Shown here: positions 7,103 to 28,710 of the stretch, piece by piece
Layout of the letters: the number at the start of each line of letters is the position of its first letter
How positions within the stretch are numbered: position 1 is the stretch's first letter
DNA from: Hylemonella sp.
GTDB lineage: Bacteria > Pseudomonadota > Gammaproteobacteria > Burkholderiales > Burkholderiaceae_C
Length of the DNA: 64,000 nt
Assembly: GCF_027532185.1 (NCBI RefSeq)
Contig: NZ_JAPZSV010000003.1
Span: 434,001-498,000, forward strand
Reading direction: 5' to 3'
Notes under the pieces: model-generated
What the model was told of the DNA's origin: nothing
Seen by the model: only the letters and a program-made list of their open reading frames with translations
The model's database searches: none
Program-made: the position numbers and the translations under genes

Positions 7103-8352
7103 CGGTCAATCTCTCCAAACACGATATCCAGGGTGCCGATGATGGCGACGGCATCGGCCAGCATGTGGCCGCGCGCCAGCTCATCGAGCGTGGCCAGATG
7201 GGCAAAGCCCGGGGCACGGATCTTGAGGCGGTAGGGTTTGTTGGCACCGTCGCTCACCATGTAGATGCCGAACTCGCCCTTGGGATGCTCGACCGCGGCA
7301 TACGCCTCGCCCGCGGGCACGCGGAACCCTTCAGTGAAGAGCTTGAAGTGGTGGATCAGCTCTTCCATGTTCGACTTCATGGCCTCACGGGCCGGCGGTG
7401 CCACCTTGTGGTTGTCGGTGATGACGGGGCCGGGGTTGGCACGCAGCCAGTCCACGCACTGCTTGATGATGCGGTTGGACTCGCGCATCTCCTGCACACG
7501 CACGAGGTAGCGGTCGTAGCTGTCGCCGGTCTTGCCCACGGGAATGTCGAAGTCCACGCGGTCGTAGGCGTCGTAGGGCTGGGTCTTGCGCAGATCCCAG
7601 GCCAGGCCCGAGCCACGCAGCATGGGGCCGGTCATGCCCAGGTTCAGCGCCCGCTCGGCCGTCACGACACCGATGCCCACCGTACGCTGCTTCCAGATGC
7701 GGTTGTCGGTCAGCAGCGTCTCGTACTCGTCCACGCACTTGGGGAAGCGCTGCGTGAAGTCGTCGATGAAGTCCAGCAGCGAACCGCTGCGCTTGGCGTT
7801 GAGGGCTGCGAGCGAGCTGGCGCTGCGCACCTTGCTGGCCTGGTGCTGCGGCATGCTGTCGGGCAGGTCGCGGTAGACGCCGCCCGGACGGAAGTAGGCC
7901 GCGTGCATGCGCGCGCCCGACACCGCCTCGTACATGTCGAACAAATCCTCGCGTTCGCGGAAGGTATAGATCAGGATGGTGGAGCTGCCGCAGTCGTTGC
8001 CGTGCGAGCCCAGCCACATCAGGTGGTTGAGCAGGCGCGTGATCTCGCCGAACATGGTGCGGATGTACTTGGCGCGCAGCGGCACTTCCAAACCCAGCAT
8101 CTTCTCGATGGCCAGGCAGTAGGCCTGCTCGTTGCACATCATCGAGACATAGTCCAGGCGGTCCATGTAAGGCAGCGACTGGATGTAGGTCTTGCTCTCG
8201 GCCAGCTTCTCGGTGGCGCGGTGCAGCAGGCCGATGTGCGGATCGGCACGCTGGACGACCTCGCCGTCGAGCTCGAGCACCAGGCGCAGCACGCCGTGGG
8301 CGGCCGGGTGCTGGGGACCAAAATTCAGCGTGTAATTCTTGATCTCGGCCAT
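7099..8352 (-). CDS. nuoD: NADH-quinone oxidoreductase subunit D
   Basis: Connecting-arm subunit (417 aa) homologous to the large subunit of [NiFe] hydrogenases. It lines the quinone-binding site with NuoB. The family N-terminus with [20 protein letters not shown] and the loop [14 protein letters not shown] are present. NuoC and NuoD are separate genes here. The 150 bases between them contain a copy of a C-rich intergenic palindromic repeat, unusual inside this otherwise tightly packed operon. Confidence 0.97.
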
Positions 8353-8410
8353 ATCAATTGCCCGACTTCAGCTCGCGGCGCATGCGAGCATGGTTTTGAA
8401 AATCGTGAAA

Positions 8411-8499
8411 CACCGCGGAACCGGCTCGGCCGGGCCGCTGGTGTTGCCCCCTGCAAGGGGGGTGGCGGAGCGACACGCAGTGCGCGAAGACTGGGGGTG
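8411..8499 (-). repeat. C-rich palindromic intergenic repeat, copy 1 (between nuoC and nuoD)
   Basis: On the minus strand this stretch starts with CACCCCCAGTC, has a CCCCCC...GGGGGC hairpin in the middle, and ends with ACCAGCGGCCCGGC facing AGCCGGTTCC. The same end module occurs on the plus strand at 28712-28792, and the front module at 45283-45349. It is non-coding and lies inside the nuo operon, so it must be transcribed. It may act as an mRNA-stability or pausing element (inference). Confidence 0.7.
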
Positions 8500-8502
8500 T
8501 GC

Positions 8503-9111
8503 TCATTTGATTCCGCCGTAGTTGTCTTCACGGATGATGCGCGGCGTGATCTCGCGCGGCTCGATGGTCACGGGCTGGTAGACCACGCGTTTGAGTTCGG
8601 CGTCGTAACGCATCTCGACGTGACCCGAGAGCGGGAAGTCCTTGCGGAAAGGGTGGCCGATGAAGCCGTAGTCGGTCAGGATGCGACGCAGATCGTCGTG
8701 GCCTTCGAAAACGATACCGTAGAGGTCGAAAGCCTCGCGCTCGTACCAGTTGGCGGCTCGCCAGACATCGACCAGCGAATCGACGACAGGAAAATCGTCA
8801 TCAGCCGCAAAGACGCGCAGACGCAGGCGCTGGTTCAGGCTGACGGAAAGCAGATGCGAGACCACGGCATAACGCGCGCCCTCCCAGGCACCCTCGCCGT
8901 AGGTGGAGTAGTCGACACCGCACAGGTCGATCAGCTGCTCGAACTGGCAGCCGGGCGCGTCGCGCAGGATCTGCGCGGCGGCACGGTAGTCCTTGGCGGC
9001 GACCTCGACGGTCACCTCGTCCAGGCGCAGCTCGATGCGACGGACCTTGTCGCCGAGCGCGGCTGCGACGGTGTTCTTGATGGTTTCGGGGTTCACGGCA
9101 ACAGCAGTCAT
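8503..9111 (-). CDS. nuoC: NADH-quinone oxidoreductase subunit C
   Basis: Connecting-arm subunit of complex I, 202 aa, about the normal length for the separate (non-fused) NuoC. The family signature [24 protein letters not shown] is visible in the middle third, followed by the conserved [12 protein letters not shown]. The gene lies 13 bases after nuoB. Its stop is followed by the repeat-bearing spacer before nuoD. Confidence 0.96.
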
Positions 9112-9124
9112 CGACAGGCTCCGA

Positions 9125-9604
9125 TCAGACGCGTGCGATGGTCTGCGTACGGCGGACCTTCTGTTGCAGCTGGATGATGCCGTAGATCAGCGCCTCGGCC
9201 GTGGGCGGGCAGCCCGGCACGTAGACGTCCACCGGCACGATGCGGTCGCAGCCACGCACGACGGAGTAGCTGTAGTGGTAGTAGCCGCCACCGTTGGCGC
9301 AGGAGCCCATGGAGATGACCCAGCGCGGCTCGCTCATCTGGTCGTAGACCTTGCGCAGCGCGGGCGCCATCTTGTTGCACAGCGTGCCGGCCACGATCAT
9401 CAGGTCGGACTGGCGCGGGCTGGCACGGAACACCTCGGAGCCGAAGCGGGCGATGTCGTATCGCGCCGCGGCCGCGTGCATCATCTCCACCGCGCAGCAG
9501 GCCAGACCGAAGGTCATGGGCCAGAGCGAGCCGGTCTTGGCCCAGTTCACCACCGTGTCGTAACTGGTGGTGACGAAGCCTTCTTTCATCACGCCTTCAA
9601 TCAT
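9125..9604 (-). CDS. nuoB: NADH-quinone oxidoreductase subunit B (cluster N2)
   Basis: Carries the terminal cluster N2 that reduces quinone. The tandem cysteines in [11 protein letters not shown] and the further ligands in GSCANGGG and [12 protein letters not shown] are visible, which completes the N2 ligand set. At 159 aa the protein is of normal length. It is preceded by nuoA and followed by nuoC. Confidence 0.97.
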
Positions 9605-9630
9605 GGCTGCTTCCTCGTCAAGAGTTCAGT

Positions 9631-9990
9631 TCATTCCCAGTCCAGAGCGCCTTTTTTCCACTCGTAGACAAAGCCCACGACGAGGATGGCGATGAACACC
9701 ATGGCGGCCCAGAAGCCGACCGCGCCCACGTCCTTGAGCGCCACGGCCCAGGGGAAGAGGAAGGCGATTTCCAGGTCGAACAGGATGAACAGGATGGCCA
9801 CGAGGTAGTAGCGCACGTCGAACTTCATGCGCGCGTCTTCAAACGCTTCGAAGCCGCATTCGTAAGGGGAGTTTTTGGCTGCGTCGGGACGGTTGGGCCC
9901 GAGGATGTAGCCGATCACCTGGGGGATGACCCCGACGGCGATGCCGACCAAGATGAACAGGAGGACGGGGAGGTACTGATCGAGATTCAT
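9631..9990 (-). CDS. nuoA: NADH-quinone oxidoreductase subunit A
   Basis: First gene of the operon. A small membrane subunit (119 aa) with three predicted helices and the family motif [20 protein letters not shown] after helix 1, which holds the conserved loop cysteine. The gene starts about 55 bases downstream of the tRNA-Leu gene, with a strong GC hairpin in between. Confidence 0.97.
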
Positions 9991-10015
9991 CTTGAAATGC
10001 TGATCACCGTTGGTG

Positions 10016-10038
10016 CCGGCCGGGCGCTGCCCGGCCGG
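10016..10038. repeat. 10-bp GC inverted repeat between tRNA-Leu and nuoA
   Basis: CCGGCCGGGC, a 3-base loop (GCT), then GCCCGGCCGG: a perfect stem 8 bases downstream of the tRNA CCA end. No T-run follows on either strand, so a classical Rho-independent terminator is unlikely. It could be a 3'-processing or stability stem, or a Rho-dependent pause site. Confidence 0.6.
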
Positions 10039-10046
10039 TCGTTATC

Positions 10047-10131
10047 TGGTGCCGTCGGCGAGACTCGAACTCGCACAGCTTTCGCCACTACCCCCTCAAG
10101 ATAGCGTGTCTACCAATTTCACCACGACGGC
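10047..10131 (-). tRNA. tRNA-Leu (anticodon GAG), CCA encoded
   Basis: Read on the minus strand it folds as a class II tRNA. The acceptor arm is GCCGTCG pairing CGACGGC, the D arm is typical of leucine tRNAs, and the anticodon loop TTGAGGG gives GAG, which reads CUC/CUU. A variable arm and the T-arm GTTCGAGTC are present. The 3' CCA is encoded. It sits between secG and nuoA and is probably processed from a secG-tRNA transcript or from its own promoter. Confidence 0.95.
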
Positions 10132-10195
10132 TAGTCTCTGATGCCGGCCTCGCATGAGGGTTGATTTCGGCTCAACCGGCAGCCTCAGAGTTTAC

Positions 10196-10231
10196 CCCGA
10201 ATTACCCCCTCTCCCCGAGGAGAAATTCGGG
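10196..10231. repeat. Inverted repeat downstream of secG
   Basis: CCCGAATT and AATTCGGG arms enclose a pyrimidine-rich loop just after the secG stop and before tRNA-Leu. It lacks a clear T-run. It could be a weak terminator for secG or a processing stem. Confidence 0.4.
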
Positions 10232-10246
10232 AAATCTTGACTCAGG

Positions 10247-10648
10247 TCATCGCGCCGGAATCTGCGCGGGGCCCGGTGCGGCAGGAGCCGCGGGCTCGGA
10301 TGCGGGCGCCGTGCCGGCGGGCGCAGCTCCCGGAATCTGGGATGCTGTTTCAGGCACAGCCGGCGCGGTCACCGCGGGATTCTCCAGCACGCTGCCCGAG
10401 CTTGCGGGCTTGGCATTGCCGACGTAGGCCAGCGCCAGCGTGCAGAGGAAGAACACCGTGGCCAGCACGGCCGTGGTGCGCGAGAGGAAGTTGGCACTGC
10501 CGCTGGCACCGAACAGGCTGCCCGAGGAGCCGCTGCCGAAGGCCGCGCCCATGTCGGCACCCTTGCCGTGCTGGACCAGCACCAGACCGATCATGGCCAC
10601 GGCCGCGAGGATCTGCACCGTGATGAGGATGGATACGACGAAACTCAT
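10247..10648 (-). CDS. secG: Preprotein translocase subunit SecG
   Basis: Small accessory subunit of the SecYEG channel that aids SecA-driven export. There are two hydrophobic helices at about residues 3-25 and 52-75, with the family loop GKGADMGAAFGSGSSGSLFG between them. The C-terminal 50 residues are a low-complexity Pro/Ala-rich tail, longer than in enterics but usual in Comamonadaceae. It is followed by tRNA-Leu and preceded by tpiA, a common betaproteobacterial order. Confidence 0.95.
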   Translation of the reverse strand: MSFVVSILITVQILAAVAMIGLVLVQHGKGADMGAAFGSGSSGSLFGASGSANFLSRTTAVLATVFFLCTLALAYVGNAKPASSGSVLENPAVTAPAVPETASQIPGAAPAGTAPASEPAAPAAPGPAQIPAR

Positions 10649-10685
10649 GTTGACTCCTAGAGGGGGATGCAGGCTGCCAGCGATG

Positions 10686-11429
10686 TCAGCCTGCAGCAGA
10701 AATGATGGTCAGGAAATCCGGGGCCTTGAGCGAGGCGCCACCGATCAGGCCGCCGTCGATGTCGGGCTGGGCCAGCAGCTGTGCGGCATTGGCCGCATTC
10801 ATGCTGCCGCCGTAGAGGATCTTCACGCGCTCAGGATGCGGCGTGGCCGCCTTGAGCTGCGCACGCAGCACCGCATGCACAGCCTGCGCCTGCTCGGGCG
10901 TGGCGGTCTTGCCGGTGCCGATGGCCCAGACGGGCTCGTAGGCCACGACGATCTCGCTGATGCAGTGGCCGTTGAGATGGATCACCGCGGCCAGCTGGCG
11001 CTTGACCACTTCTTCCGTCTTGCCGGCTTCACGCTCGGCCAGGGACTCGCCCACGCAGACGATGGGCGTCACGCCATTGGCCAGCACGCGCTGGGCCTTG
11101 GCGGCCACGGCGGCATCGGTCTCGCCGTGGTACTGGCGGCGTTCCGAATGGCCCACGATGGCGTAGCGCACGCCAAAGTCCTTGAGCATGGCCACCGAGA
11201 CCTCACCGGTGTAGGCACCGAGCTCGTGCGCCGACACGTCCTGCGCACCGAGCTCCACCGGGCTCGTGGCCAGCAACGCCTGGCACTGCGCGAAGTACGG
11301 CGCGGGCACGCAGACCGCGATGTCGCAGGCCGGGTCTTTCAGCCCGGAGAGGATGCCCTTGAGCAGCGTCTGGTTGGCGGCGAGGCCGCCATTCATCTTC
11401 CAGTTGCCGGCTATCAGCTTACGGCTCAT
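10686..11429 (-). CDS. tpiA: Triose-phosphate isomerase
   Basis: Interconverts dihydroxyacetone phosphate and glyceraldehyde 3-phosphate in the cytosol. 247 aa, TIM barrel. Catalytic residues are visible: Lys in AGNWKMNG, His in VGHSERRQ, Glu in [11 protein letters not shown]. The start is the ATG at 11427-11429, which overlaps the stop of the upstream oxidoreductase. The tpiA stop lies inside an inverted repeat (GCAGGCTG...CAGCCTGC, 10669-10694) before secG. Confidence 0.97.
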
Positions 11430-17736: not shown

Positions 17737-18792
17737 TCAGACAGACTGACTGATCGCATCCAGCGGCCAGCGCGGCTTGACCTCGAAGGTGTAGGCGCGG
17801 GTGGCTTCCTGCTGGCCCGCCTGCAAGCGCATGGCAGCGGCCATGGCGATCATGGCGCCGTTGTCGGTGCACAGGTGCAGCTCGGGGTAGTGCACGCGCA
17901 CCTTGCGTTTCATGCACGCGGCATTGAGCTGCTCGCGCAGCAGCTTGTTGGCGCCCACGCCGCCGGCCACGACCAGGCGCTTCATGCCCGTGGCGTCCAG
18001 CGCGGCGAGTGATTTCTTCACCAGCACCTCGACGATCGCGGCCTGCGTGGACGCGGCGAGGTCCGCCTTGCGCACTTCCAGTTCATCCCCCAGGCGCTGC
18101 GCCTGCGTGAGCACGGCGGTCTTGAGGCCGGCGAAAGAGAAGTCGAGGTTGCCGCTGTGCAAGAGCGGGCGCGGCAGCTTGAAGGCCGCGCCGTCGCCCT
18201 GCTCCGCCAGCCTGGCCAGCGCGGGACCACCGGGGTAGCCCAGGCCCATGAGCTTGGCCGACTTGTCGAAGGCCTCGCCCGCGGCATCGTCGATGGTCTC
18301 GCCGAGCATCTCGTAGCGGCCCACGCCGTCCACGCGCATGAGCTGGGTATGGCCACCCGAAACCAGCAGAGCGACGAAGGGAAACTCCGGCGGGTCGACA
18401 CTGAGGAAGGGCGAGAGCAGATGGCCTTCGAGGTGGTGCACGCCCAGCACCGGCTTGCCCAGGGCTGCGCCCAAGGCGCAGGCCACGCCCGCACCGACCA
18501 GCAGCGCGCCGGCCAGGCCGGGGCCGCGGGTGTAGGCCACCACATCGATGTCTTTCAAGGTCTTGCCGGCCTCGGCCATGACCTGGTTCGTCAGCGGCAG
18601 CACCCGGCGGATGTGATCGCGGCTGGCGAGTTCGGGCACCACGCCGCCGTAGGCCTGATGCATCTCGATCTGGCTGTAGAGCGCGTGCGAGAGCAGACGG
18701 GGCACGCCCACACCTCGCGACTCCACCAGGGCCACGCCCGTTTCGTCGCAGGAGGATTCGATGCCGAGGATCAGGGGTGCCACATCTGTCAT
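17737..18792 (-). CDS. tsaD: tRNA N6-adenosine threonylcarbamoyltransferase TsaD
   Basis: Transfers threonylcarbamoyl to A37 of ANN-decoding tRNAs, acting with TsaB and TsaE. 351 aa from the ATG at 18790-18792 ([19 protein letters not shown]). A frame extension 6 codons upstream has a weaker start. The ASKHA fold shows the nucleotide motif [14 protein letters not shown], the metal-binding histidines in [12 protein letters not shown], and SGGHTQLM. It lies 46 bases downstream of the SDR gene on the same strand and may be read through from that operon. Confidence 0.96.
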
Positions 18793-18838
18793 GCGGCGAG
18801 TGTAGGCCAAGGCCCCTGCCCTGTGCCCGCGCCGGGGC

Positions 18839-19606
18839 TCACTTCATGACCAAACCGCCATCCACCACCAGCACCTGCCCGGTGACAAAACGGCTCCAGT
18901 CCGAGGCCAGGAAAAGCACGGGACCGGCCACATCCTCGGGCCGCGCGATGCGGCGCAGCGGCGTCTGGGCCACGATGGTTTCCTTCACGTCTTCCTTGGT
19001 GGCGCGGCTCGCGTCGGTCGGATACACCAGACCGGGCGCCACGCAGTTGACGCGGATGCCCAGGGGGCCGAGCTCGGCCGCGAGGTTGCGCGAGTAGCCC
19101 ACGAGCGCGGACTTGGCCGTGGCGTAGTCGTGGTACGGGACCACGGGCCGCTCGACCAGATCACTTGCGAGATTGACGATATTGCCCTGCGCGCGCTGGC
19201 GCATGCCGGGCAGCACGGCCTGGCAGACGTGGTGGGTGGTGCGCACCGCGCCCTCGAACTGCGCCTGGTAGTCGGCCCAGTCGGTTTCCCAGTAGCGCTT
19301 GCGTTGCTCGGGGTCGAAGCGATACGGCGCGAAGGCGTTGTTGACCAGCACGTCGATGCGGCCGAGCTCCGCCTGGATCTGCGCCACCATGGCCTGTACC
19401 TGGGCTGCGTCGCTCACGTCGGCACGGATCGCCCAGGCATCGCCACCGGCGGCCTTGCAGTCGGCCACCACGGCCTCGGCCGCTGCCTCGTTGCGCAGGT
19501 AGTTGACGACCACAAAGCCGCCTTCGGCCGCGAAGGCACGCGCAATCGCCGCGCCGATGCCGCGGCTGGCGCCGGTGACGAGGATGACCTGGCCCTGGAA
19601 TTTCAT
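18839..19606 (-). CDS. SDR-family NAD(P)-dependent oxidoreductase (last gene of TPP-riboswitch operon)
   Basis: Short-chain dehydrogenase of 255 aa with the cofactor motif TGASRGIG at residues 11-18, NNAFAP near 90, a catalytic Ser in NLASD and YHDYATAK supplying Tyr and Lys. It resembles FabG-like 3-oxoacyl reductases, but its context argues for another substrate. It is the last gene behind the ABC transporter, LuxC and LuxE homologues, 16 bases from the binding-protein gene. It could reduce the aldehyde made by the LuxC homologue to an alcohol (inference). Confidence 0.85.
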
Positions 19607-19622
19607 GGTCTGGCCCTGCGGC

Positions 19623-20621
19623 TTACTTCGACTTGCCCGGCAGCAGGTCCTGGCTGACCACGGCCTTCATGTCGAGGTCGCGCTCGATCAGGCCGATCTG
19701 CTTCCAGGCCACGGCGCCTTTCTGCAGCATCTCGACGTCGATGGCGCCCAGGCCTTTCTGCTGGGTCAGCGGCGAGACGCTGGTGGCATTGCGCAGCTTG
19801 ATCACTTCCAGATTCACGGCCTCGTTCTGGCCGTTGATGGCGCGCTTGACGGCGAGCTTCGCAGCCTCGTCCGGCTGGTCCATCATCCACTGTGCGCTGT
19901 CGCGGTAGGCGGCGAGGAAACGGCGCAGCACGTCCTTGCGCTTCTGATAGGTCTCCTCGCGCACCACGAACAGGTCGCTGGAGAGGTTGAGCGAATCGCG
20001 CACTTCCATCACGTTGACCTCGCCCACGCCGCGCGCGCGTGCCACCAACAGGCCGGTGTCGGTGGCGGCGGTGGCGTCCACCTGGCCCTGCATCAGCGGC
20101 GCGAAGTTGAGCAGGCCGGTGACGACGATGGTCACGTCCTTGGTGCTCAGGCCGGCCTGGTTCAGCAGCAGCTGCAGATTGGCCAGCGTGCCACTGGAGA
20201 GGCTGTAGACACCGATCTTCTTGCCCTTGAGGTCGGCGGGCTTGCGGATGTTGGCGCTCTTGAGCGAGACCACGTTGAAGACATTCTGCGGATAGATGTC
20301 GTAGATGGCGCGCAGCTTCTCACCCTTGTCGAGCGCGGCGTAGAAGGAACCGGGGTCGGTGAAGGCCACGTCGGCCTGGCCGCTGAGCAGGTTGCGCACC
20401 GCGTCGCCGCCGCCCGTGCCCGGCATGTAGACCAGCTCGATGCCGCGCGCACGGAAGAAGCCCTTGTCGGGTTCGACCAGCAGGTTGGTCACCTCGGAGA
20501 TCGGGCCGCCCCAGCTGGCCATGGTGATCTTTTCCAGCTTGGCGTCCTGGGCACCGGCCGTGGGCCCGAGCAGGCTCAGCGCGGCCAGGGCCAGCAGGGC
20601 ACGCAGGGTGTGTCGTTTCAT
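19623..20621 (-). CDS. ABC transporter substrate-binding protein, NMT1/ThiY-like (NitT/TauT type)
   Basis: Periplasmic binding protein of 332 aa with a clear signal peptide (MKRHTLRALLALAALSLLG, cleavage after about GAQ). The fold is the NMT1/TauA type: GGGDAVRNLLSGQADVAFTD and ADLKGKKIGVYSLSSGT. This family includes the pyrimidine-binding ThiY as well as nitrate, sulfonate and riboflavin binders. Control by a TPP riboswitch points to a thiamin-related ligand such as a pyrimidine or thiazole derivative (inference). It lies 10 bases after the permease gene. Confidence 0.85.
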   Translation of the reverse strand: MKRHTLRALLALAALSLLGPTAGAQDAKLEKITMASWGGPISEVTNLLVEPDKGFFRARGIELVYMPGTGGGDAVRNLLSGQADVAFTDPGSFYAALDKGEKLRAIYDIYPQNVFNVVSLKSANIRKPADLKGKKIGVYSLSSGTLANLQLLLNQAGLSTKDVTIVVTGLLNFAPLMQGQVDATAATDTGLLVARARGVGEVNVMEVRDSLNLSSDLFVVREETYQKRKDVLRRFLAAYRDSAQWMMDQPDEAAKLAVKRAINGQNEAVNLEVIKLRNATSVSPLTQQKGLGAIDVEMLQKGAVAWKQIGLIERDLDMKAVVSQDLLPGKSK

Positions 20622-20631
20622 GGTGTCATCC

Positions 20632-21393
20632 TCAGTTCGAAGAAAAAAAATAGGTACTCAGCAGCTTGCGCTCCAGCCACAGCGTGGCCTCGTAGAGCAG
20701 CAGGCCGATGGCGGTGATCAGTAGCAGCACGGCGAACATCAGCGGCGTGTCCATGGAGCCCTGCGCGGCGATGATGAGCGCACCCAGCCCGCGGCTGGCG
20801 CCGATGAACTCGCCCACCACGGCGCCCACCAGTGCCAGCACCACGGCCACGCGCAGGCCGGCCAGGATGGCGGGCAGGCTGGCCGGCAGCTTGAGCCGCC
20901 ACAGGGTCTGGGCGCGTGTGGCGCCAAGCATGCGGAACAATTCGAGGCGCGCGGGGTCCACCTGCGCGATGCCGGTCAGCGTGTTCTCCAGCAGCGGGAA
21001 AAAGCAGATCAGCGCCGTGATGACCACCGTGGGCGTGGTCCCGAAGCCGAACCAGACAATGAAGAGCGGCAGCAGCGCGAGCTTGGGCACCACCTGGCTG
21101 GTCACCACATAAGGCATGAGAACACGGCGCAGCACGGCCGATTCACCGAGCAGCACGCCGCCTGCAAATCCCAGCAGCACGCCCAGCCCCAGCCCCAGAC
21201 CCAGCTCCAGCAGGGTCTGGGCGATATGGGGCCAGAGGTAACCCGTGGCCAGACCACGGCTGAGCGCGGCGGCGATCACGCTGGGGGCAGGCAGCACCAG
21301 GGGCGAGAACCTGAAGGCCTGCACAGCCCATTCCCAGGCCAGCAGGAGCAACACCAGAAGCGCCAGGGCGAGCAGACGTGGGTACTTCGTCAT
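20632..21393 (-). CDS. ABC transporter permease, NitT/TauT type (ThiX-like)
   Basis: Inner-membrane permease of 253 aa with about six helices. The EAA-type coupling loop is seen in EFIGASRGLGALI. The start is the ATG at 21391-21393 (MTKYPRLLAL), which overlaps the stop of the ATPase gene. Together with the ATPase and the binding protein it makes a complete single-permease importer. Confidence 0.88.
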   Translation of the reverse strand: MTKYPRLLALALLVLLLLAWEWAVQAFRFSPLVLPAPSVIAAALSRGLATGYLWPHIAQTLLELGLGLGLGVLLGFAGGVLLGESAVLRRVLMPYVVTSQVVPKLALLPLFIVWFGFGTTPTVVITALICFFPLLENTLTGIAQVDPARLELFRMLGATRAQTLWRLKLPASLPAILAGLRVAVVLALVGAVVGEFIGASRGLGALIIAAQGSMDTPLMFAVLLLITAIGLLLYEATLWLERKLLSTYFFSSN

Positions 21394-22148
21394 GCAACGC
21401 TCTCCCCGTCCATCGCATGCCTCAACTCGGCGCACAGGGCATTGAAAGCCGCCCCGTAGCGCACATCCTGCACACGCGGGCGCGGCAAGTCGACACGCAC
21501 ATCGTGGCGGATCCGGCCTGCATCCATCACGGCCACACGGTCGGCCAGGTAGACCGCCTCGGCGATATCGTGCGTGACGAAAAACACCGGCGTGCCGCGC
21601 TCGCGGCAGACGGCCAGCAATGCGTCCTGCAGCTCCTCGCGCGTGATCGCGTCCAGCGCGGCAAAGGGTTCGTCCATCAGCAGGATGGAGGGCCCGGGCA
21701 GCAAGGCACGCGCAATCGCCACGCGGCTCTGCTGCCCCCCCGACAGCTGACGCGGGCGATGCTGCAGGTGCGCGCCCAGGCCCAGCTGCGTGAGCAGCGC
21801 CTCGGCGCGCGCCATGTCGTCCGCGCCAACCTTGCCTTGCAGGCTCAGGGGCAGCAGCACGTTGTCGCGCACGCTGAGCCAGTCCAGCAGCGTGGGCTGC
21901 TGGAACACGAAACCGATGTGCGGCCCGGGCGCCGGCAGCGGCCGGCCCTGCAGCAGCACGGTGCCTGCATCCGGACGCAGCAGGCCCGCAGCGAGCTTGA
22001 GCAGGGTCGTCTTGCCGCAGCCGCTGCGACCCACGAGGCAGTGGAACTCACCCGGCGCGATGTCCCAGTCCACGGCCTGCACCACGGGCGGCCAGCCCGG
22101 GAAGGTGTAGCTCACCCGGCGCATGTCGAGAAAGGGCGCGGCACTCAT
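21390..22148 (-). CDS. ABC transporter ATP-binding protein, NitT/TauT type (ThiZ-like)
   Basis: Nucleotide-binding subunit of 252 aa. Walker A is GRSGCGKTTLL (about 44-54), the ABC signature is LSGGQQSRVAIARAL, and Walker B is ILLMDEPFAALD. The start is the ATG at 22146-22148 (MSAAPFLDMRRV), 10 bases after the LuxC-like gene. The NitT/TauT subfamily also includes ThiZ, consistent with thiamin-precursor uptake. Confidence 0.88.
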   Translation of the reverse strand: MSAAPFLDMRRVSYTFPGWPPVVQAVDWDIAPGEFHCLVGRSGCGKTTLLKLAAGLLRPDAGTVLLQGRPLPAPGPHIGFVFQQPTLLDWLSVRDNVLLPLSLQGKVGADDMARAEALLTQLGLGAHLQHRPRQLSGGQQSRVAIARALLPGPSILLMDEPFAALDAITREELQDALLAVCRERGTPVFFVTHDIAEAVYLADRVAVMDAGRIRHDVRVDLPRPRVQDVRYGAAFNALCAELRHAMDGESVA

Positions 22149-22158
22149 CGTCAAACTT

Positions 22159-23607
22159 TCAGTCCCGATACGCAGCGTGCTGCTCGGCCGCATCTTCGGC
22201 CGACTGCTCCAGCTCGACCATGCGCACGAGGTCCAGCAGCGAGAAACGTCCGTCGTGATGCCAGCCGGCCTCGGGCGCAGTCATCTGACCCAGGGCGCAG
22301 ATGCGTGTGGCGCCAGCGCGGCCCAGGCCTTCGGCCAGGGCGTGCAGCTCTTGCGGTGCGGCGGCGATACCAACGGTCTGCAGATAGTCGCGCTGCGCAG
22401 CGAGCGGCGGCAGCGTTTCGTCGAGCACGGCCACGGCCTGCACCTGGACCGTGCGATTGAGTGCGCAGGGCAGCAAGGGGCCGGCCTGCTCCGCGTAGGC
22501 CACGGCCCAGGGGGCACTCGCATCGCCGATCAGTTCCACCGAGCCATCCTGGCCCTGGAGTTCCTGCCCCTGACGCCAGCCCGCCACGCCGGCAGCCTCT
22601 TCCAGGCTCAGCGCGCGACGTGCAAACTTGTGCTGCAGGGCCGAAAGCTCGCCGGCCAGGGCCTGGGCGAACTCGCGCGGGCTCACGCGGCCGCCACGGG
22701 CGACGTAATAGGTGTGCGGTGAATAACAACCCTGCTGCTCATAGCGCACCACGTCCAGCGCCGCCGCACGTGCCACCGCCGGCAGGTGCTGCGCGTCCAG
22801 CGCAGCGGCCGAGACCAGCCCCACACTGAGCTTGTGGCCGTGCGGCAGGAAACGCGTGCTCACGGGCAACTGCTGGCGCAGCGCGGCCAGGGTCTCGTTG
22901 CCGCCGTAGGCCAGCACGGTGTCGGCCTCGGCATACAACGCACGCTCGCTTTCCGTGTCACCGCCCTTGAAGCTGACGATGGCCAGCGCGTCGGCCAGCT
23001 TCGGCTCCACCTCGGCCAGCAGGCGCGCAAACAGCGCCGCAAAAAGAGGCTCGGCACTGGCCACCTTGCCCACGGCCGGCGCCTTGACCAGCAGGCCGCA
23101 GACCAGACTCCACAGCGGCAGGCCCGGCACATTGCCGGCCCAGACGTGCACCAGCAGCTCGGGACCGAGCGCGCGCGCCATGCCGCCCTTGACGCGCGGC
23201 TGGAATTCATCGAGCAGCTTGGGATTGGCAAAGTCCTCGGCCACGAAGCGCTGCAGCTGCGGCGCGCGGAAGGTCTTGAGGTAGGCGTTGAGCCCGAGAC
23301 GCACCATCTCGGCGTCGAAGCCGGTGATGCGCGGCAGCAGCTGGTCGAGCTGCTGGCGGTAGGGGTCCTGCGCGTCGAGCAGGCGCGCGATGGCGCGGTC
23401 GACGGCGGCGATGATCTGTGAAACAGAGAGCGCCCGGATCTGCGCCCCGCCCTGCGTGCGCACATGGCGTGCCAGCGCCTGCAGCTGTCCGGGCGTGAGT
23501 TGCGGCACGCTCACCTCTAGGCGCTGCCCCCCCTCGCCAAAGATCAGCGTGTGCCAGGCCAGCTCTTCGGCCTTCAGACCGGGGAGATAAGCCGCAGCGA
23601 TCTTCAT
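22159..23607 (-). CDS. LuxC-like acyl-CoA / acyl-protein reductase
   Basis: 482 aa protein of the LuxC family, aldehyde-dehydrogenase fold. LuxC takes an acyl group from acyl-LuxE or acyl-CoA onto an active-site cysteine and reduces it with NADPH to the aldehyde. The probable nucleophile is Cys294 in YEQQGCYSPHTYYV. The region LLVHVWAGNVPGLPLWSLV fits the family. The start is the ATG at 23605-23607, overlapping the luxE-like stop by 4 bases. No luciferase (luxAB) or luxD is nearby, so bioluminescence is not the role. It sits in a TPP-riboswitch operon, which is unusual. Reduction of an activated thiamin-related carboxylate is my inference. Confidence 0.85.
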   Translation of the reverse strand: MKIAAAYLPGLKAEELAWHTLIFGEGGQRLEVSVPQLTPGQLQALARHVRTQGGAQIRALSVSQIIAAVDRAIARLLDAQDPYRQQLDQLLPRITGFDAEMVRLGLNAYLKTFRAPQLQRFVAEDFANPKLLDEFQPRVKGGMARALGPELLVHVWAGNVPGLPLWSLVCGLLVKAPAVGKVASAEPLFAALFARLLAEVEPKLADALAIVSFKGGDTESERALYAEADTVLAYGGNETLAALRQQLPVSTRFLPHGHKLSVGLVSAAALDAQHLPAVARAAALDVVRYEQQGCYSPHTYYVARGGRVSPREFAQALAGELSALQHKFARRALSLEEAAGVAGWRQGQELQGQDGSVELIGDASAPWAVAYAEQAGPLLPCALNRTVQVQAVAVLDETLPPLAAQRDYLQTVGIAAAPQELHALAEGLGRAGATRICALGQMTAPEAGWHHDGRFSLLDLVRMVELEQSAEDAAEQHAAYRD

Positions 23608-24737
23608 GCGCGTGCCGCCCTGAGAAATTCGTCCACTGCCAGCGAGCAACCCTTGGCCTGCGCGCCCTGGGCCCGGCCCAGCAGCAGGAAGCCACCGTCA
23701 ACTTCCACGCCCACGTCTTCGGTCAGGATGGTGGTGACCGAGTTGTAGTTGCCCAGGTCGGTGTGGGCGAGGATGCCGCGCTCACCTTTCGGCACGTCCT
23801 GCCCGGTGAGCGGGTCCAGCACGCGGGAGCGGATCCAGTGCGGGCCGGACTTGACGGCCGGCAGCACGGCATTGCCCGCGTCGTAGAACTGCGTGCTGAG
23901 TTCCGTCATGCCGTACATATTGATGCAGGCGCTACGCGGCACGCCGAAGGTGAACGTGAGCTGGTCGTAGAACTCGTCCATGGCCATCTCGCGCGACTGG
24001 CCTTTGAATCCGCCGGTGTCGAGCAGGCGGCTGCCCGCAGGCAGCTGGAAACGCAGGCCCCGCTCACGCAGCGCATCCATCAGGTGCACGAAGCTGTAGC
24101 TCGCGCCCAGCACCGCAAAAGTCTCACCGCTCTCCTGCACCTGGGCCAGCGTGGCGCACAGCGCGTCGAGCTGCAGGCCCGCGTTGTCCAGGTAGTAGCG
24201 GCTGTCGGGCGTGCCGAAGGTCTGCAAAGCCAGGGCCAGGTAGTGCGCTAGCGAGGAGTTGGGCATGAGCTGTTCGTCAGGGAAGAGGATGCCCATGCGC
24301 ATGCGCTCCCGCCCGGCCATGAAACGTGCCTGGAAGTTGCGCGTCATGGAAAGATCGTAGACCGCGAGGTCAGGGTGCCAGTGCCGGCCCTTGACGTCGC
24401 CGCGGGTGGTGCCGCTGGTCTGGAAGACGCGCGCGCACAGATCAGTCGGCACGCAGCTCAGCGTCAGGTCCTTGAAGCCGTTGATGGGAACCGCCGGAAT
24501 CTCGCGCCAGCGTTTCACCGTGCGCGGCGTGCGGCCACGCTGCTGGCAGAACTTCTGGAACGCCGGGTTGTGCTGGAACTGGTGCGCGTAGAGGCGCAGG
24601 GCCAGGGCATTGAAATCCGCCTCGCTCACCGCATCGCGCGCGATGAAGGCGAGCAGCTCCGGCACGGGTCCGGCTGCGGTTGGCGACGATGCCTGGAGAG
24701 TCTCTGCCACGACGTCCTTTCTTTCTGTGCCATGCAC
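23604..24737 (-). CDS. LuxE-like acyl-protein synthetase (first gene of TPP-riboswitch operon)
   Basis: Member of the LuxE family, related to adenylating enzymes. It activates a carboxylate with ATP as acyl-AMP and holds the acyl group on a cysteine. Visible are the nucleotide motif VFQTSGTTRGDVKG (about 104-117), NMYGMTELSTQFYD near 270, and a cysteine 14 residues from the C-terminus in AKGCSLAVDEF, where the acylated Cys of LuxE lies. No in-frame ATG exists near the 5' end. I give GTG at 24735-24737 (GGAG five bases upstream), but GTG at 24708-24710 behind AAAGGA is an equal alternative. The TPP riboswitch ends about 40 bases upstream. Confidence 0.82.
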   Translation of the reverse strand: MHGTERKDVVAETLQASSPTAAGPVPELLAFIARDAVSEADFNALALRLYAHQFQHNPAFQKFCQQRGRTPRTVKRWREIPAVPINGFKDLTLSCVPTDLCARVFQTSGTTRGDVKGRHWHPDLAVYDLSMTRNFQARFMAGRERMRMGILFPDEQLMPNSSLAHYLALALQTFGTPDSRYYLDNAGLQLDALCATLAQVQESGETFAVLGASYSFVHLMDALRERGLRFQLPAGSRLLDTGGFKGQSREMAMDEFYDQLTFTFGVPRSACINMYGMTELSTQFYDAGNAVLPAVKSGPHWIRSRVLDPLTGQDVPKGERGILAHTDLGNYNSVTTILTEDVGVEVDGGFLLLGRAQGAQAKGCSLAVDEFLRAARA

Positions 24738-24778
24738 ATGTGCTCCGAAAGGTGTGGCAGGACGGGTGGGGCCTGCAG

Positions 24779-24890
24779 ACAGCTCTTCTTACGTCGGTAT
24801 GATCCGAGTCAAGTTCACGGGTTCGGTATCGGGATCGGGTCCCACCATCTCAGCTGTCCACCACGTGGACAACACCCCGGAGCAGGGCTG
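24779..24890 (-). promoter_or_regulatory. TPP riboswitch (thi box) controlling luxE-luxC-ABC-SDR
   Basis: On the minus strand the aptamer order is clear. It starts with the 5' GGGGTG, followed by the P3 hairpin GTCCAC-GTG-GTGGAC, then GCTGAGATGG. An extended P3a-like region comes next. The thi-box core follows as GTGAACTTGACTCGGATCATACCGACGTAAGAAG, given here only in parts: GAACTTGA, CGGATCATACCG, ACGTAAGAA. These match the conserved CTGAGA, GAACCTGATC and GGATAATGCC-GCGTAGGAA positions of TPP aptamers. It lies just before the GTG start of the luxE-like gene, so control is probably at translation initiation or by termination. No long T-run is seen. Confidence 0.9.
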
Positions 24891-24919
24891 ATTCTATGCC
24901 ATGCACCCGGCTGATGACT
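24891..24919 (-). promoter_or_regulatory. Candidate promoter of the TPP-riboswitch operon
   Basis: TAGAAT reads on the minus strand at 24896-24891. Transcription from it would start near 24884, right at the 5' edge of the riboswitch aptamer. The -35 region is a poor match. Confidence 0.4.
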
Positions 24920-25012
24920 GGGCGCCGCCAACCTGATGTATTGCTTGTGTGCGCCGCGCCCCAATGCGGTGCTTGCGCCAGAGATGAACAGTTGCTGGAC
25001 AATTCCGTCGTC

Positions 25013-26224
25013 ATGAATTCCGGACTCAACTTCCTCGTCGCCGCCCGCCAGTGCGAGATCAGCGAGCTCGAACACTTGGCGCTGACCAGCGAACTGGTCG
25101 GCGTGATCGGCCGTCTCGTGCACGCGCTGCAGCGCGAACGCGGCATCTCCAACGTCTACCTGGCTTCGCGCGGCGCGCGCTTTGGCGATGCCCTGCAGCA
25201 GCAGGTGGCCGACTGCGAGGCCGTGCAGGCCCAGGTGCTCACGCGGCTGGACGCGCTCGACACCGACGCCCGCCGCGTGCGCAACGGAGCGCGCCTGTTC
25301 AGCCGCATCGCCTTCGTGCTGCACGCGCTCGAGGGCCTGCCGGCGCTGCGGCAGCGCGTCAGCACCCAGAGCGTGCCGGCCGAAGAGGCCACGGCCACCT
25401 ACACCCGCCTAATCGCCGGCCTGCTCAACGTGGTCTTCGAGGCCGCCGACAGCGCCACCGACCCCAAGATCTCGCGCGCCCTGGTGGCCCTCTTCCACTT
25501 CCTGCAGGGCAAGGAATACGCAGGCCAGGAGCGCGCCTTCGGCGGCGCGGCCTACGCCTCGGGCCAGATCGACGCGGCGCACCGCCAGCAGTGGCAGCAC
25601 CTGATCGAGGCGCAAGAGGCCTGCCTGCAGGTCTTCCGCGATTTCTCCGACGAAGCCGTGCGCAGCGCCTGGCAGGCCAGCCTGCCAGTGGAGGCCGTCA
25701 ACACGCTCGAACGCATGCGCCGTGTGGCCTCGGCCAATGCCCATGGCACGCTGGACCCGAATGCCAGCGCCACCTGGTACGAGGCCTGCACCCTGCGCAT
25801 CGACGCCATGAAGTCCTTCGAGGACCAGCTGGCCGCCAATCTGCGCCTGCTCTGCGACGAGCGCATCGCCCAGGCCCACGCCGACCTGCGCGACCAGCAG
25901 GCCATCCTGGACGCGCTGCAGCGCCAGGCCGGAGACGCCGGCAACGAGCCCCCGGCCCTGCTGGGCCCGCACCTGGAGCGCTCCATCCTGGGCATGGTGC
26001 AGGAACAGTCGCGCCGCCTGCAGAGCATGAGCGACGAGCTCGAAACCGCGCGCGCCGCGCTCAACGAGCGCAAGGTCATCGAGCGTGCCAAGGGCCTGCT
26101 CATGGCCTCGCGCAAGCTCAGCGAAGACGAGGCCTACAAGATGCTGCGCCAGACCGCGATGAACCAGGGCCGGCGCCTGGTGGATGTGGCCAAGACCGTG
26201 CTCGCCATGTCCGACTACCTCTGA
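25013..26224 (+). CDS. Nitrate-responsive antiterminator, NIT + ANTAR domains (NasR-like)
   Basis: 403 aa cytosolic regulator. The N-terminal 300 residues match the NIT nitrate/nitrite-sensing domain (VHALQRERGISNVYLAS near residue 40). The last 55 residues are an ANTAR RNA-binding domain (VIERAKGLLMASRKLSEDEAYKMLRQTAM). NasR of Klebsiella binds leader RNA of the nasF operon when nitrate is present and prevents termination. Here two leaders with the required hairpins lie downstream (nrtA at 26403-26504, nirB at 33581-33670). I use the ATG at 25013 (MNSGLNFLVAAR). The frame is open further upstream without family similarity. Confidence 0.9.
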   Translation: MNSGLNFLVAARQCEISELEHLALTSELVGVIGRLVHALQRERGISNVYLASRGARFGDALQQQVADCEAVQAQVLTRLDALDTDARRVRNGARLFSRIAFVLHALEGLPALRQRVSTQSVPAEEATATYTRLIAGLLNVVFEAADSATDPKISRALVALFHFLQGKEYAGQERAFGGAAYASGQIDAAHRQQWQHLIEAQEACLQVFRDFSDEAVRSAWQASLPVEAVNTLERMRRVASANAHGTLDPNASATWYEACTLRIDAMKSFEDQLAANLRLLCDERIAQAHADLRDQQAILDALQRQAGDAGNEPPALLGPHLERSILGMVQEQSRRLQSMSDELETARAALNERKVIERAKGLLMASRKLSEDEAYKMLRQTAMNQGRRLVDVAKTVLAMSDYL

Positions 26225-26369
26225 CCGCGGCGCCCGCGCACTTCATGGTGCGACGCACAATAAGAGTGCCTACGCACCCGCACAGCGGCCGCAAGTGGGT
26301 CTGACCGGATGAAAACAAGTCCTTGTTTTCAAACAACTTTCTCCTGAAACACCCACACGGGACTCAGCC

Positions 26370-26386
26370 TGGCACGGTATCTGCTT
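26370..26386 (+). promoter_or_regulatory. Sigma-54 promoter of the nitrate transporter operon
   Basis: TGGCACGGTATCTGCTT matches the -24/-12 consensus TGGCACG-N4-TTGCWT at all but one position. The GG (26371-26372) and GC (26383-26384) elements have the strict sigma-54 spacing. Transcription would start near 26395, just before the antiterminator hairpins. This implies nitrogen control through NtrC. An imperfect dyad GCAC-N6-GTGC near 26239 may be an activator site, but its spacing is one base off the NtrC norm. Confidence 0.8.
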
Positions 26387-26402
26387 GATGCCTACCAAGT
26401 CC

Positions 26403-26458
26403 GGCCAATGGCGGCCTGACCCAGGTCTCTCAGAGACATCTCTGGACAACGGCGTCCA
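26403..26458 (+). promoter_or_regulatory. ANTAR-type antiterminator RNA motif, nrtA leader (two hexaloops)
   Basis: Hairpin P1: GGCC, loop AATGGC, GGCC (26403-26416). Hairpin P2: TGGAC, loop AACGGC, GTCCA (26443-26458). Both loops are six bases with A at position 1 and G at position 4, the signature of ANTAR target RNA. P2 shares bases with the left arm of the following terminator, so the two folds exclude each other. A third hairpin lies in the 26-base linker. Confidence 0.8.
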
Positions 26459-26504
26459 TTCCCTGCCACCCGAATGGGCGGCGGTGGAATGGGTGCCGTT
26501 TTTT
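26449..26504 (+). terminator. Regulated leader terminator before nrtA
   Basis: Left arm 26449-26462 (ACGGCGTCCATTCC) pairs with the right arm 26486-26499, with G-U pairs. An inner TGCCACCC/GGGCGGCGG stem extends the hairpin and TTTTTT follows. It ends about 30 bases before the nrtA start, so it must be read through for expression. This fits control by the NIT-ANTAR protein. Confidence 0.85.
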
Positions 26505-26534
26505 GTTTGTGCCTCGTCCGTAATGGAGTTCATC

Positions 26535-27788
26535 ATGCAAGACCCCGTGATCGCCAACGCCGCCGGTCCGTCCCGCCGCACCGTTCTTCAGGCCGCCGCC
26601 GTCGGCGCCGTGGGCCTGACACCTGCCCTGCGTGCCGCCGTCTACGCCGCGGGCTCGGACGCCCCCGAGAAGAAGGAAGTCAAGATCGGCTTCATCCCGC
26701 TGACCGACTGCGCCAGCGTCGTGATGGCCTCGGTGCTGGGCATCGACCAGAAATACGGGGTCAAGATCATCCCCACCAAGGAAGCGAGCTGGGCCGGCGT
26801 GCGCGACAAGCTGGTCAACGGTGAACTCGACATGGCCCACGTGCTCTGGGGTCTGATCTACGGCGTGCACATGGGGGTCTCGGGCCCCAAGAAGGACATG
26901 GCCATCCTGATGAACCTCAACCACAACGGCCAGGCCATCACCCTGAGCAAGAAACTCGCCGACAAGGGCGCGGTGGACGCGGCCAGCCTGGCCAAGCTGA
27001 TGGCCACGGACAAACGCGAATACACCTTCGCCCAGACCTTCCCCACCGGCACGCACGCCATGTGGCTGTATTACTGGCTGGCCTCGGCCGGCATCAACCC
27101 CATGAAGGACGCCAAGGTCATCACCGTGCCGCCCCCCCAGATGGTGGCCAATATGCGCGTGGGCAATATGGATGGCTACTGCGTGGGCGAGCCCTGGAAC
27201 CACCGCGCCATCATCGACGGCATCGGTATCACCGCTGCCACCACCCAGGACATCTGGAAGGACCACCCGGAGAAGGCCCTGGGCACCACGGCCGAGTTCG
27301 TCAAGAAGTACCCGAACACCGCGCGCGCTGTCACCGCCGCCATCATCGAAGCGGGCAAGTGGATCGACGCCGGCCTGCAGAACAAGCTCAAGATGGCCGA
27401 GACCGTGGCTGACAAGAGCTACGTCAACACCAGCGTCGACGCGATCAACCAGCGCATCCTGGGTCGTTACCAGGACGGCATGGGCAAGACCTGGGACGAC
27501 CCCAACCACATGAAGTTCTACAACGACGGTGCCGCCACCTTTCCTTACCTCACCGACGGCATGTGGTTCCTGACCCAGCACAAGCGCTGGGGTCTGCTGA
27601 AAGAACACCCCGATTACCTGGCCATGGCCAAACAGGTCAACCAGATCGACATCTACAAGCAGGCCGCCACCGCCGCCAAGGCCAGCCTGCCCAAGAGCGA
27701 TATGCGCACGAGCAAGATGATCGACGGCGTGGTCTGGGATGGCAAGGACCCGAAGAAGTACACCGACAGTTTCAAGATCAAGGCCTGA
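26535..27788 (+). CDS. nrtA: Nitrate ABC transporter substrate-binding protein (NrtA/NasF-like), Tat-exported
   Basis: Nitrate/nitrite binding protein of 417 aa. The N-terminus has a twin-arginine signal (PSRRTVLQAAAVGAVG). The mature part shows the CmpA/NrtA fold: KIGFIPLTDCASVVMASVLG, MAHVLWGLIYGVHMGVSG and MDGYCVGEPWNHRAI. I chose the ATG at 26535 behind GGAG with 6-base spacing. An in-frame ATG at 26523 is also possible. It is the first gene of nrtABC and is preceded by the sigma-54 promoter and regulated leader. Confidence 0.92.
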   Translation: MQDPVIANAAGPSRRTVLQAAAVGAVGLTPALRAAVYAAGSDAPEKKEVKIGFIPLTDCASVVMASVLGIDQKYGVKIIPTKEASWAGVRDKLVNGELDMAHVLWGLIYGVHMGVSGPKKDMAILMNLNHNGQAITLSKKLADKGAVDAASLAKLMATDKREYTFAQTFPTGTHAMWLYYWLASAGINPMKDAKVITVPPPQMVANMRVGNMDGYCVGEPWNHRAIIDGIGITAATTQDIWKDHPEKALGTTAEFVKKYPNTARAVTAAIIEAGKWIDAGLQNKLKMAETVADKSYVNTSVDAINQRILGRYQDGMGKTWDDPNHMKFYNDGAATFPYLTDGMWFLTQHKRWGLLKEHPDYLAMAKQVNQIDIYKQAATAAKASLPKSDMRTSKMIDGVVWDGKDPKKYTDSFKIKA

Positions 27789-27810
27789 GGGCACCAGCAA
27801 GGAGACCATC

Positions 27811-28710
27811 ATGGTCAGCGCCGTCTTTCACCCCCCCGCCAGCCTCAGCGCCGAGTCCACGCCCCCGGCTGAGCGCAAGCCGGCCGCCGCCACCGCGGTG
27901 CCGTCGCTCGTCAAGGCCCCCGGCTACGACTGGCGCGGCCTGTTCCTGCGGGTCGTCCCGCCGCTGCTGGGCCTGGCCCTGCTGGTGGGCATCTGGTCCC
28001 TGATCTCGGCCACCAGCGGCAGCAGCATCCCCAGCCCCGCCGAGACCTGGAAGCAGGCGCTCACGCTTTTCAGCGACCCCTTCTACCGCAAGGGACCGAA
28101 CGACCAGGGCGTAGGCTGGAACGTGCTGATGTCGCTCGAGCGTGTGGCCCTGGGCTTCGGCCTGGCGGCGCTGGTCGGCATCCCGGCCGGTTTCATGATC
28201 GGGCGCTTCACCTTCCTGAGCCGCATGTTCAACCCGCTGATCAGCCTGCTGCGCCCGGTGTCACCGCTGGCCTGGCTGCCCATCGGCCTGCTGGTCTTCA
28301 AGGGCGCCAACCCGGCCGCCATCTGGACCATCTTCATCTGCTCGATCTGGCCCATGATCATCAACACCGCCGTGGGTGTGCAGCGCGTGCCGCAGGACTA
28401 CATGAACGTCGCGCGCGTGCTGCAGCTCTCCGAGTGGAAGATCGTCACCAAGATCCTCTTCCCCGCCGTGTTGCCTTATATGCTGACCGGCGTGCGCCTG
28501 GCCGTGGGTACGGCCTGGCTGGTGATCGTCGCGGCCGAGATGCTGACCGGCGGCGTGGGCATTGGCTTCTGGGTCTGGGACGAGTGGAACAACCTCAACG
28601 TCAAGAACATCATCATTGCCATCTTCGTGATCGGCATCGTCGGCCTGGTACTCGAATTTGCTCTCATCAAACTCGCCACCGCCTTCACCTTCGAAGAAGT
28701 CAAAAATTAG
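27811..28710 (+). CDS. nrtB: Nitrate ABC transporter permease (NrtB)
   Basis: Inner-membrane permease of 299 aa with a 45-residue cytosolic N-terminus and about six helices. The sequence SAEMLTGG-like coupling segment is seen as AAEMLTGGVGIGFWVWDEWN. The start is the ATG at 27811 behind AAGGAGACC. It lies between nrtA (22-base gap) and the ATPase gene. Confidence 0.92.
   Translation: MVSAVFHPPASLSAESTPPAERKPAAATAVPSLVKAPGYDWRGLFLRVVPPLLGLALLVGIWSLISATSGSSIPSPAETWKQALTLFSDPFYRKGPNDQGVGWNVLMSLERVALGFGLAALVGIPAGFMIGRFTFLSRMFNPLISLLRPVSPLAWLPIGLLVFKGANPAAIWTIFICSIWPMIINTAVGVQRVPQDYMNVARVLQLSEWKIVTKILFPAVLPYMLTGVRLAVGTAWLVIVAAEMLTGGVGIGFWVWDEWNNLNVKNIIIAIFVIGIVGLVLEFALIKLATAFTFEEVKN

Follow-up and report, generated by a model that had tools for sequence, protein, structure and literature searches.

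A conserved operon of LuxE, LuxC, importer, and dehydrogenase genes behind a thiamin pyrophosphate riboswitch, with a probable role in salvage of the thiamin pyrimidine

Why do homologs of LuxE and LuxC lie behind a thiamin pyrophosphate (TPP) riboswitch, together with the genes of an importer? This question was raised by a stretch of 64,000 nucleotides from Hylemonella sp. (assembly GCF_027532185.1, contig NZ_JAPZSV010000003.1, positions 434,001 to 498,000; the whole stretch is hereafter called the window). In this window, a TPP riboswitch heads a packed minus-strand operon of six genes: luxE, luxC, the ATPase (abcA) and permease (abcP) genes of an ATP-binding cassette (ABC) transporter, and the genes encoding a substrate-binding protein (SBP; sbp) and a short-chain dehydrogenase/reductase (SDR; sdr). 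We propose that the operon probably serves the TPP-repressed salvage of the pyrimidine half of thiamin, through the import of a carboxylated pyrimidine and its reduction to hydroxymethylpyrimidine (HMP).

The operon and its conservation

The riboswitch aptamer (THI element) lies at positions 24769-24889 of the minus strand (Rfam RF00059, 55.6 bits for a gathering threshold of 54.3, E 3.5e-8). It is the sole match listed at the gathering threshold in the Rfam scan of the window, and it was found again in a search of the whole genome. The first gene, luxE (23604-24710), encodes a LuxE-type adenylating acyl-protein synthetase (PF04443, 4.2e-20, 72.4 bits for a cut-off of 24.9; profile match to 7xc6_E at 3.4e-27), and luxC (22159-23607) encodes a LuxC-type acyl-thioester reductase (PF05893, 1.6e-85, 287.9 bits for a cut-off of 21; match to 7xc6_A). 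They are followed by abcA (21390-22148), a NitT/TauT-type ABC ATPase gene (PF00005; the best NCBIfam models, ntrCD and TauB, stay below their cut-offs), and abcP (20632-21393), a permease gene of the same type (PF00528; longest open reading frame (ORF) to 21435). Then come sbp (19623-20621), encoding an NMT1/THI5/ThiY-like periplasmic SBP (PF09084, 9.7e-50), and sdr (18839-19606; PF13561/PF00106), whose product is proposed to take an aldehyde to an alcohol.

The genes are tightly joined, with ATGA overlaps at the luxE/luxC and abcA/abcP junctions and, by ORF coordinates, 10 bases from the permease gene to sbp and 16 bases from sbp to sdr. The luxE start is probably the GTG at 24710, behind AAAGGA, rather than 24737, the position to which the longest ORF runs. 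Likewise, luxC probably starts at the ATG at 23607 (longest ORF to 23649) and abcA at 22148, 10 bases past luxC (longest ORF to 22193). Cys364 of LuxE and Cys308 of LuxC, discussed below, are numbered on the longest ORFs (to 24737 and 23649, respectively). The first-pass annotation had described a TPP aptamer over a tight six-gene LuxE-LuxC-ABC-SDR unit, and the RF00059 match, the Pfam domains, and the junction overlaps bear this out. A hairpin predicted over the luxE start was no stabler than shuffled sequence (z -0.81 and -0.09), and therefore no riboswitch mechanism is claimed.

Searching 399 genomes of the order for LuxE gave 14 matches at E <= 0.001, eight of them at 502 bits or more and the other six at 41.3 bits or less. 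Among 398 genomes of the phylum there were 23 matches, six at 589 bits or more and the next at 72 bits. The LuxE orthologs are thus cleanly distinct from other LuxE-like proteins. A pattern scan of a species-genome collection, which covers close relatives only, yielded 58 loci, which by their record titles belong to Curvibacter, Limnohabitans, Ramlibacter, Malikia, Alcaligenaceae, other Burkholderiales, Azospirillum, and further Alphaproteobacteria. One of them (L076) comes from a metagenome bin recorded as Chitinophaga pinensis, but its operon falls with Malikia, so that the title probably reflects a naming or binning error.

We compared 66 loci, namely the window, seven from the order sample, and the 58 from the pattern scan. 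The same six-gene order on one strand was found in 56 of them. Seven of the ten deviating loci stop at a contig end, L063 and L065 have no ATPase gene between luxC and the permease gene (the importer would need a borrowed ATPase), and L067 consists of luxE-luxC-sdr. The sdr gene is present in all 59 loci that are not cut off before its place, and the permease and SBP genes are kept in every locus that reaches theirs, if the split set of G430, the genome of L067, is counted. In G430, luxE-luxC-sdr stands under one TPP riboswitch, while a second one heads the ATPase, permease, and SBP genes on another contig. By this natural separation, the SDR is linked to LuxE-LuxC and the transporter genes are linked to one another, in both cases behind TPP riboswitches.

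Riboswitches and thiamin genes were counted in 58 operon-bearing genomes, eight from the order sample and 50 representing as many of the 58 pattern-scan loci. In 54 of these 58 genomes, luxE is preceded on its own strand, at a distance of no more than 1.4 kb, by a TPP riboswitch; orthologous aptamers score partly above and partly below the RF00059 cut-off. In one of the four remaining genomes (L057), the contig ends 272 bases from the luxE start. The first-pass annotation had made its reading depend on this link being kept in relatives, which it is. Because both the gene order and the riboswitch are conserved, the unit is far from chance. Elsewhere, contig C36 of G417 carries at 218132-218444 a divergent pair of adjoining TPP riboswitches, one on each strand.

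Thiamin genes in the carriers

The operon is found among thiamin genes in several carriers. In L022, from a genome that lacks ThiC (G240), the order on one strand is riboswitch-thiD-luxE-luxC-abcA-abcP-sbp-sdr-thiE-thiO-thiG, a thiamin pathway in which the operon stands where thiC would. The thiD gene is placed between the riboswitch and luxE in L058, L060, and L066 as well as in L022, and a CytX-like permease gene (a putative HMP transporter family) takes this place in L080. In 14 loci, titled Limnohabitans, Malikia, and relatives, thiD comes after sdr on the opposite strand, and thiO-thiG come next on the operon strand, with thiE in 13 of them (L082 ends in thiG). In L077, thiC is found immediately upstream of luxE (around 7844-11065), and each of these two tandem genes apparently has a TPP riboswitch of its own.

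Three TPP riboswitches were found in the genome of the window (G000, 3.33 Mb, 100% complete): at the LuxE operon, at thiC, and at thiO-thiG-thiE with thiD divergent. ThiC, ThiG, and ThiD were found by search, and thiO and thiE were named by similarity to proteins named in another locus. With these genes, the organism is apparently capable of its own thiamin synthesis, the operon being additional.

In the carriers, ThiG is nearly always retained, also where ThiC is missing. ThiG scored above 190 bits in 57 of the 58 carriers (two of these matches are partial), and ThiD was above its cut-off in 56. Among the carriers without ThiC, 21 of 22 have ThiG above 190 bits, as do 13 of the 53 genomes of the order that lack both ThiC and the operon (Fisher p 7.5e-9, not corrected for kinship). 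These 53 gave 27 ThiG matches at E <= 0.001, 17 of them over the family cut-off, and those beyond the 13 lie below 31 bits; by the family cut-off, the counts are 22 of 22 versus 17 of 53. When only isolates and near-complete genomes were kept, ThiG was found in 6 of 6 ThiC-less carriers versus 10 of 43 ThiC-less non-carriers (p 0.0006, again without kinship correction). These six are Limnohabitans Jir72, B9-3, and JirII-31, Ramlibacter lithotrophicus, R. paludis, and G240 (98% complete), the Limnohabitans and Ramlibacter genomes being taken as isolates by their titles. Within the family to which the window belongs, the three genomes that lack ThiC and the operon also have no ThiG.

Genes of other salvage routes were also counted. 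TenA was found in 20 of the 58 carriers, two of the matches being weak. Of the 22 ThiC-less carriers, 3 have it, versus 7 of the 13 ThiC-less, ThiG-bearing genomes without the operon (p 0.013); none of the six firm ThiC-less carriers has it. A search of the 58 genomes for CytX gave 14 matches at E <= 0.001, none above the curated cut-off; four exceed 200 bits and are called CytX-like only, one of them in a ThiC-less carrier (1/22). Neither TenA nor a CytX-like permease was found in 18 of the 22. These carriers may still have another pyrimidine importer, such as ThiV. In locus L092 (5112-6882), the thiC gene of G427 matches in several frames with one stop, which would fit a decayed gene or assembly errors.

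The proposed route and its rivals

The residues that the proposed chemistry would need are conserved. When gaps are disregarded, Cys364 of LuxE and Cys308 of LuxC are at least 99% conserved in an alignment of 66 sequences. The match between a profile of 16 LuxE orthologs and 7xc6_E extends across KGCSL, the motif containing Cys364. For LuxC, the alignment with the reductase chain 7xc6_A pairs its cysteine with one in a like setting, QQ-x-C. We take 7xc6 to be the LuxC-LuxE fatty acid reductase complex of Photobacterium, where the acyl-acceptor cysteine near the LuxE C-terminus is Cys364, and we take the aligned cysteines to be the acyl-carrying residues. The SDR keeps TGxxxGxG and YxxxK, motifs of this family. 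In line with the proposed chemistry, the LuxE model (mean pLDDT 86.9) is nearest in fold to PaaK-type aryl-acid ligases among the matches listed.

The importer resembles ThiXYZ, being a TPP-controlled ABC operon with an SBP homologous to ThiY/THI5. The AlphaFold model of the SBP (mean predicted local distance difference test (pLDDT) score 89) ranks closest in the PDB to 3ix1, the ThiY that binds the formylated aminopyrimidine FAMP, followed by the thiamin-bound SBP 4nmy, 3qsl, and THI5. THI5 HMP phosphate synthase is a cytosolic suicide enzyme that consumes pyridoxal phosphate and histidine. The N-terminus of the present protein, signal-peptide-like as judged by eye, and the adjoining permease and ATPase genes speak for an SBP.

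We infer the carboxylate and the reductive direction from the enzyme families; the exact substrate and the repression by TPP are likewise proposed. At low cellular TPP, the riboswitch would permit expression of the operon, and the importer with its ThiY-like SBP would bring in a carboxylated pyrimidine, for which 4-amino-2-methylpyrimidine-5-carboxylate is the likeliest candidate. LuxE would adenylate the carboxylate with ATP and then hold the acyl group on Cys364, from which it would move to Cys308 of LuxC and be reduced with NAD(P)H to the aldehyde. The SDR would convert the aldehyde to the alcohol, giving HMP as end product. In carriers with ThiC the operon would act as a supplement, while carriers without it would depend for their pyrimidine on the operon or on HMP itself. 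As ThiC is retained in most carriers, this supplementary role would be the main one. According to a reference title in PMC7780320, the proposed acid occurs in the urine of rats as a metabolite of thiamin.

Several observations weigh against this reading. ThiC is present in 36 of the 58 carriers (and in 345 of the 399 genomes of the order), and G430 has no full ThiG, its match reaching only 33.7 bits. The share of 22 ThiC-less carriers leans on pattern-scan loci, of which many come from metagenome bins; in these, a gap would mimic a profile of missing ThiC and kept ThiG (L034, L038, and L041 especially); the count was therefore repeated on the firm genomes, as given above. ThiC loss is not commoner in carriers in the even order sample (1/8 versus 53/391), nor among isolates and near-complete genomes (6/24 versus 43/338, p 0.12). 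ThiC loss as a mark of carriers, suggested by 22/58 versus 54/399, was dropped, as it fails in these like-for-like counts. On a quick LuxE-LuxC tree, the state of thiC changes at least 12 times, although single changes may be assembly gaps. A laxer Rfam scan yielded no TPP riboswitch at the operon in L064, L072, and L084, and the genome of L072 (G435) has none anywhere. The SBP fold match to 3ix1 comes at only 18% identity, and by sequence the best PDB match is 3qsl, an exported protein with a ligand of unknown kind, 3ix1 being sixth or eighth. For the LuxE model, 7xc6 is not among the best 50 fold matches. Finally, we found no report in the literature of the pyrimidine acid in water or soil.

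The first-pass annotation had proposed that an oxidised moiety of thiamin is salvaged under control by thiamin, with pyrimidine carboxylate and thiazole acetate among the options. The thiamin control and a pyrimidine branch are supported; a link to auxotrophy holds in part, as some carriers lack ThiC and most do not. The pyrimidine carboxylate is favored by ThiG and ThiD being kept without ThiC, by the clustering with thiD, thiE, and thiG, and by an SBP fold nearest to a pyrimidine-binding protein.

The importer could instead take HMP, FAMP, or another known pyrimidine, with LuxE-LuxC-SDR acting on a different modification of it; this would still be salvage of the pyrimidine, by other chemistry. 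The ThiY-like fold of the SBP model is consistent with this, and the thiY annotated in ThiC-less Limnohabitans, as described in an excerpt of PMC12637900, may be the present SBP. However, imported HMP would need ThiD alone, and FAMP or an aminopyrimidine would need TenA, which is missing from 19 of the 22 ThiC-less carriers. LuxE and LuxC also retain the residues for carboxylate activation and thioester reduction. We therefore regard this alternative as unlikely.

Rather doubtful is a further proposal, that LuxE-LuxC-SDR ends a ThiC-independent pyrimidine route, which would leave bacteria at present classed as HMP auxotrophs (Limnohabitans and some Ramlibacter) independent of external HMP through a carboxylate of their own or an environmental pool of the acid. 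A fully de novo version, where the three enzymes complete HMP from a cell-made carboxylate and the transporter imports a building block, seems quite improbable. Carriers without ThiC or TenA do exist, isolates among them, and G430 shows the enzyme unit to be separable from the transporter. However, no further gene beyond the known thi genes tracks the operon across the loci, in flanks compared with 16 query proteins only, and the permease and SBP are kept wherever a locus reaches their place.

Salvage of a whole oxidised thiamin, such as thiamin acetic acid, is very unlikely: the second-ranked fold of the SBP is indeed thiamin-bound, but this route would make ThiG, ThiO, ThiE, and ThiD dispensable, and these are kept and clustered in ThiC-less genomes. 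Salvage on the thiazole side, with 4-methylthiazole-5-acetate reduced to hydroxyethylthiazole, would suit the TPP control and involve identical chemistry. We consider it more improbable still, because thiazole synthesis is retained in nearly all carriers searched, 22 of which lack ThiC; the kinase gene of the clusters is thiD (a thiazole kinase was not searched for). The ThiG/ThiD profile thus disfavors both routes, the thiazole acetate of the first-pass annotation included. Bioluminescence LuxE and LuxC act on tetradecanoyl groups, but fatty-acid or fatty-aldehyde metabolism placed by chance behind a TPP riboswitch is the least credible explanation, given the conserved riboswitch link, the clustering with thi genes, and scores far under the long-chain fatty-acid equivalog cut-offs (LuxE ligase NF052244, 66 bits for 550; LuxC reductase NF052251, 78.5 bits for 750).

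Neighboring genes, related systems, and meaning

On the same strand, sdr is closely followed by tsaD (17737-18810), which may share the transcript in Curvibacter-like genomes; tsaD does not adjoin sdr in the other loci compared. Divergent from the operon, on the plus strand at 24896-28710, lie genes for a NIT-ANTAR regulator (PF08376, PF03861) and an NMT1_2-type SBP, and a permease-like ORF. By its look this block is for nitrate uptake, and it is probably unrelated to the operon, since it lies beside it only in Curvibacter-like loci. No luxA, luxB, or luxD was found among the scanned neighbors of the operon. The absence of luciferase stated by the first-pass annotation holds for the nine operon-area proteins scanned, the rest of the window and the genome having been outside that luciferase search.

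The enzymes are most directly compared with Photobacterium LuxC-LuxE (7xc6). Both protein families, the aligned cysteines, and the proposed sequence from acid through acyl-AMP and acyl-enzyme to aldehyde are shared, whereas the window proteins are distant in sequence and their operon adds the TPP riboswitch, the importer, and the SDR. FAMP salvage by ThiXYZ/ThiY with TenA has in common with the proposed route the TPP control, a NitT/TauT-type importer, an SBP fold nearest to 3ix1, and the passing of HMP to ThiD. It differs in that TenA was not found in 38 of the 58 carriers, and in that aminopyrimidine hydrolysis is replaced here by a putative acid reduction.

A ring carboxylate is reduced to a hydroxymethyl group by the pair EhpF-EhpG. 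Phenazine biosynthesis proteins 3hgv/3hgu, which we take to be EhpF, are among the LuxE fold matches at rank 28. This pair serves antibiotic synthesis, EhpF is a remote relative of LuxE, and we know of no TPP riboswitch or importer associated with it. As in our operon, an adenylating enzyme is encoded beside an aldehyde-dehydrogenase-type gene in this pathway to griseoluteic acid (excerpt of PMC11278526), and the step follows phenazine-1,6-dicarboxylic acid (excerpt of PMC3175449).

The first-pass annotation knew of no described pathway with this combination; in agreement, the titles and abstract openings among the literature matches listed describe no pairing of a TPP riboswitch or thiamin with LuxE-LuxC. 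One paper each mentions a TPP riboswitch together with LuxE (PMC6482342) and thiamin together with acyl-protein synthetase (PMC3599157), and their titles point to different topics. Carboxythiazole (cHET) belongs to the thiazole branch, and its carboxylate, on C2, is not reduced to an alcohol. It is nevertheless a precedent for an environmental vitamer that is a carboxylated precursor of thiamin, used in plankton (excerpts of PMC12637900 and PMC10881298). LuxE and LuxC are unnamed in the excerpted text of PMC3766115, a survey of TPP regulons, and a pyrimidine carboxylate is missing from the B1 compound list as excerpted from PMC10881298.

If our reading is correct, the operon would represent a branch of thiamin salvage that starts at an acid and uses enzymes known from bioluminescence, and it would point to a pyrimidine carboxylate as a vitamer. 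It would also give a concrete function to a subfamily of LuxE/LuxC. The carriers include a number of freshwater and soil bacteria, and the present view that common freshwater bacteria are strict auxotrophs for HMP would be altered.

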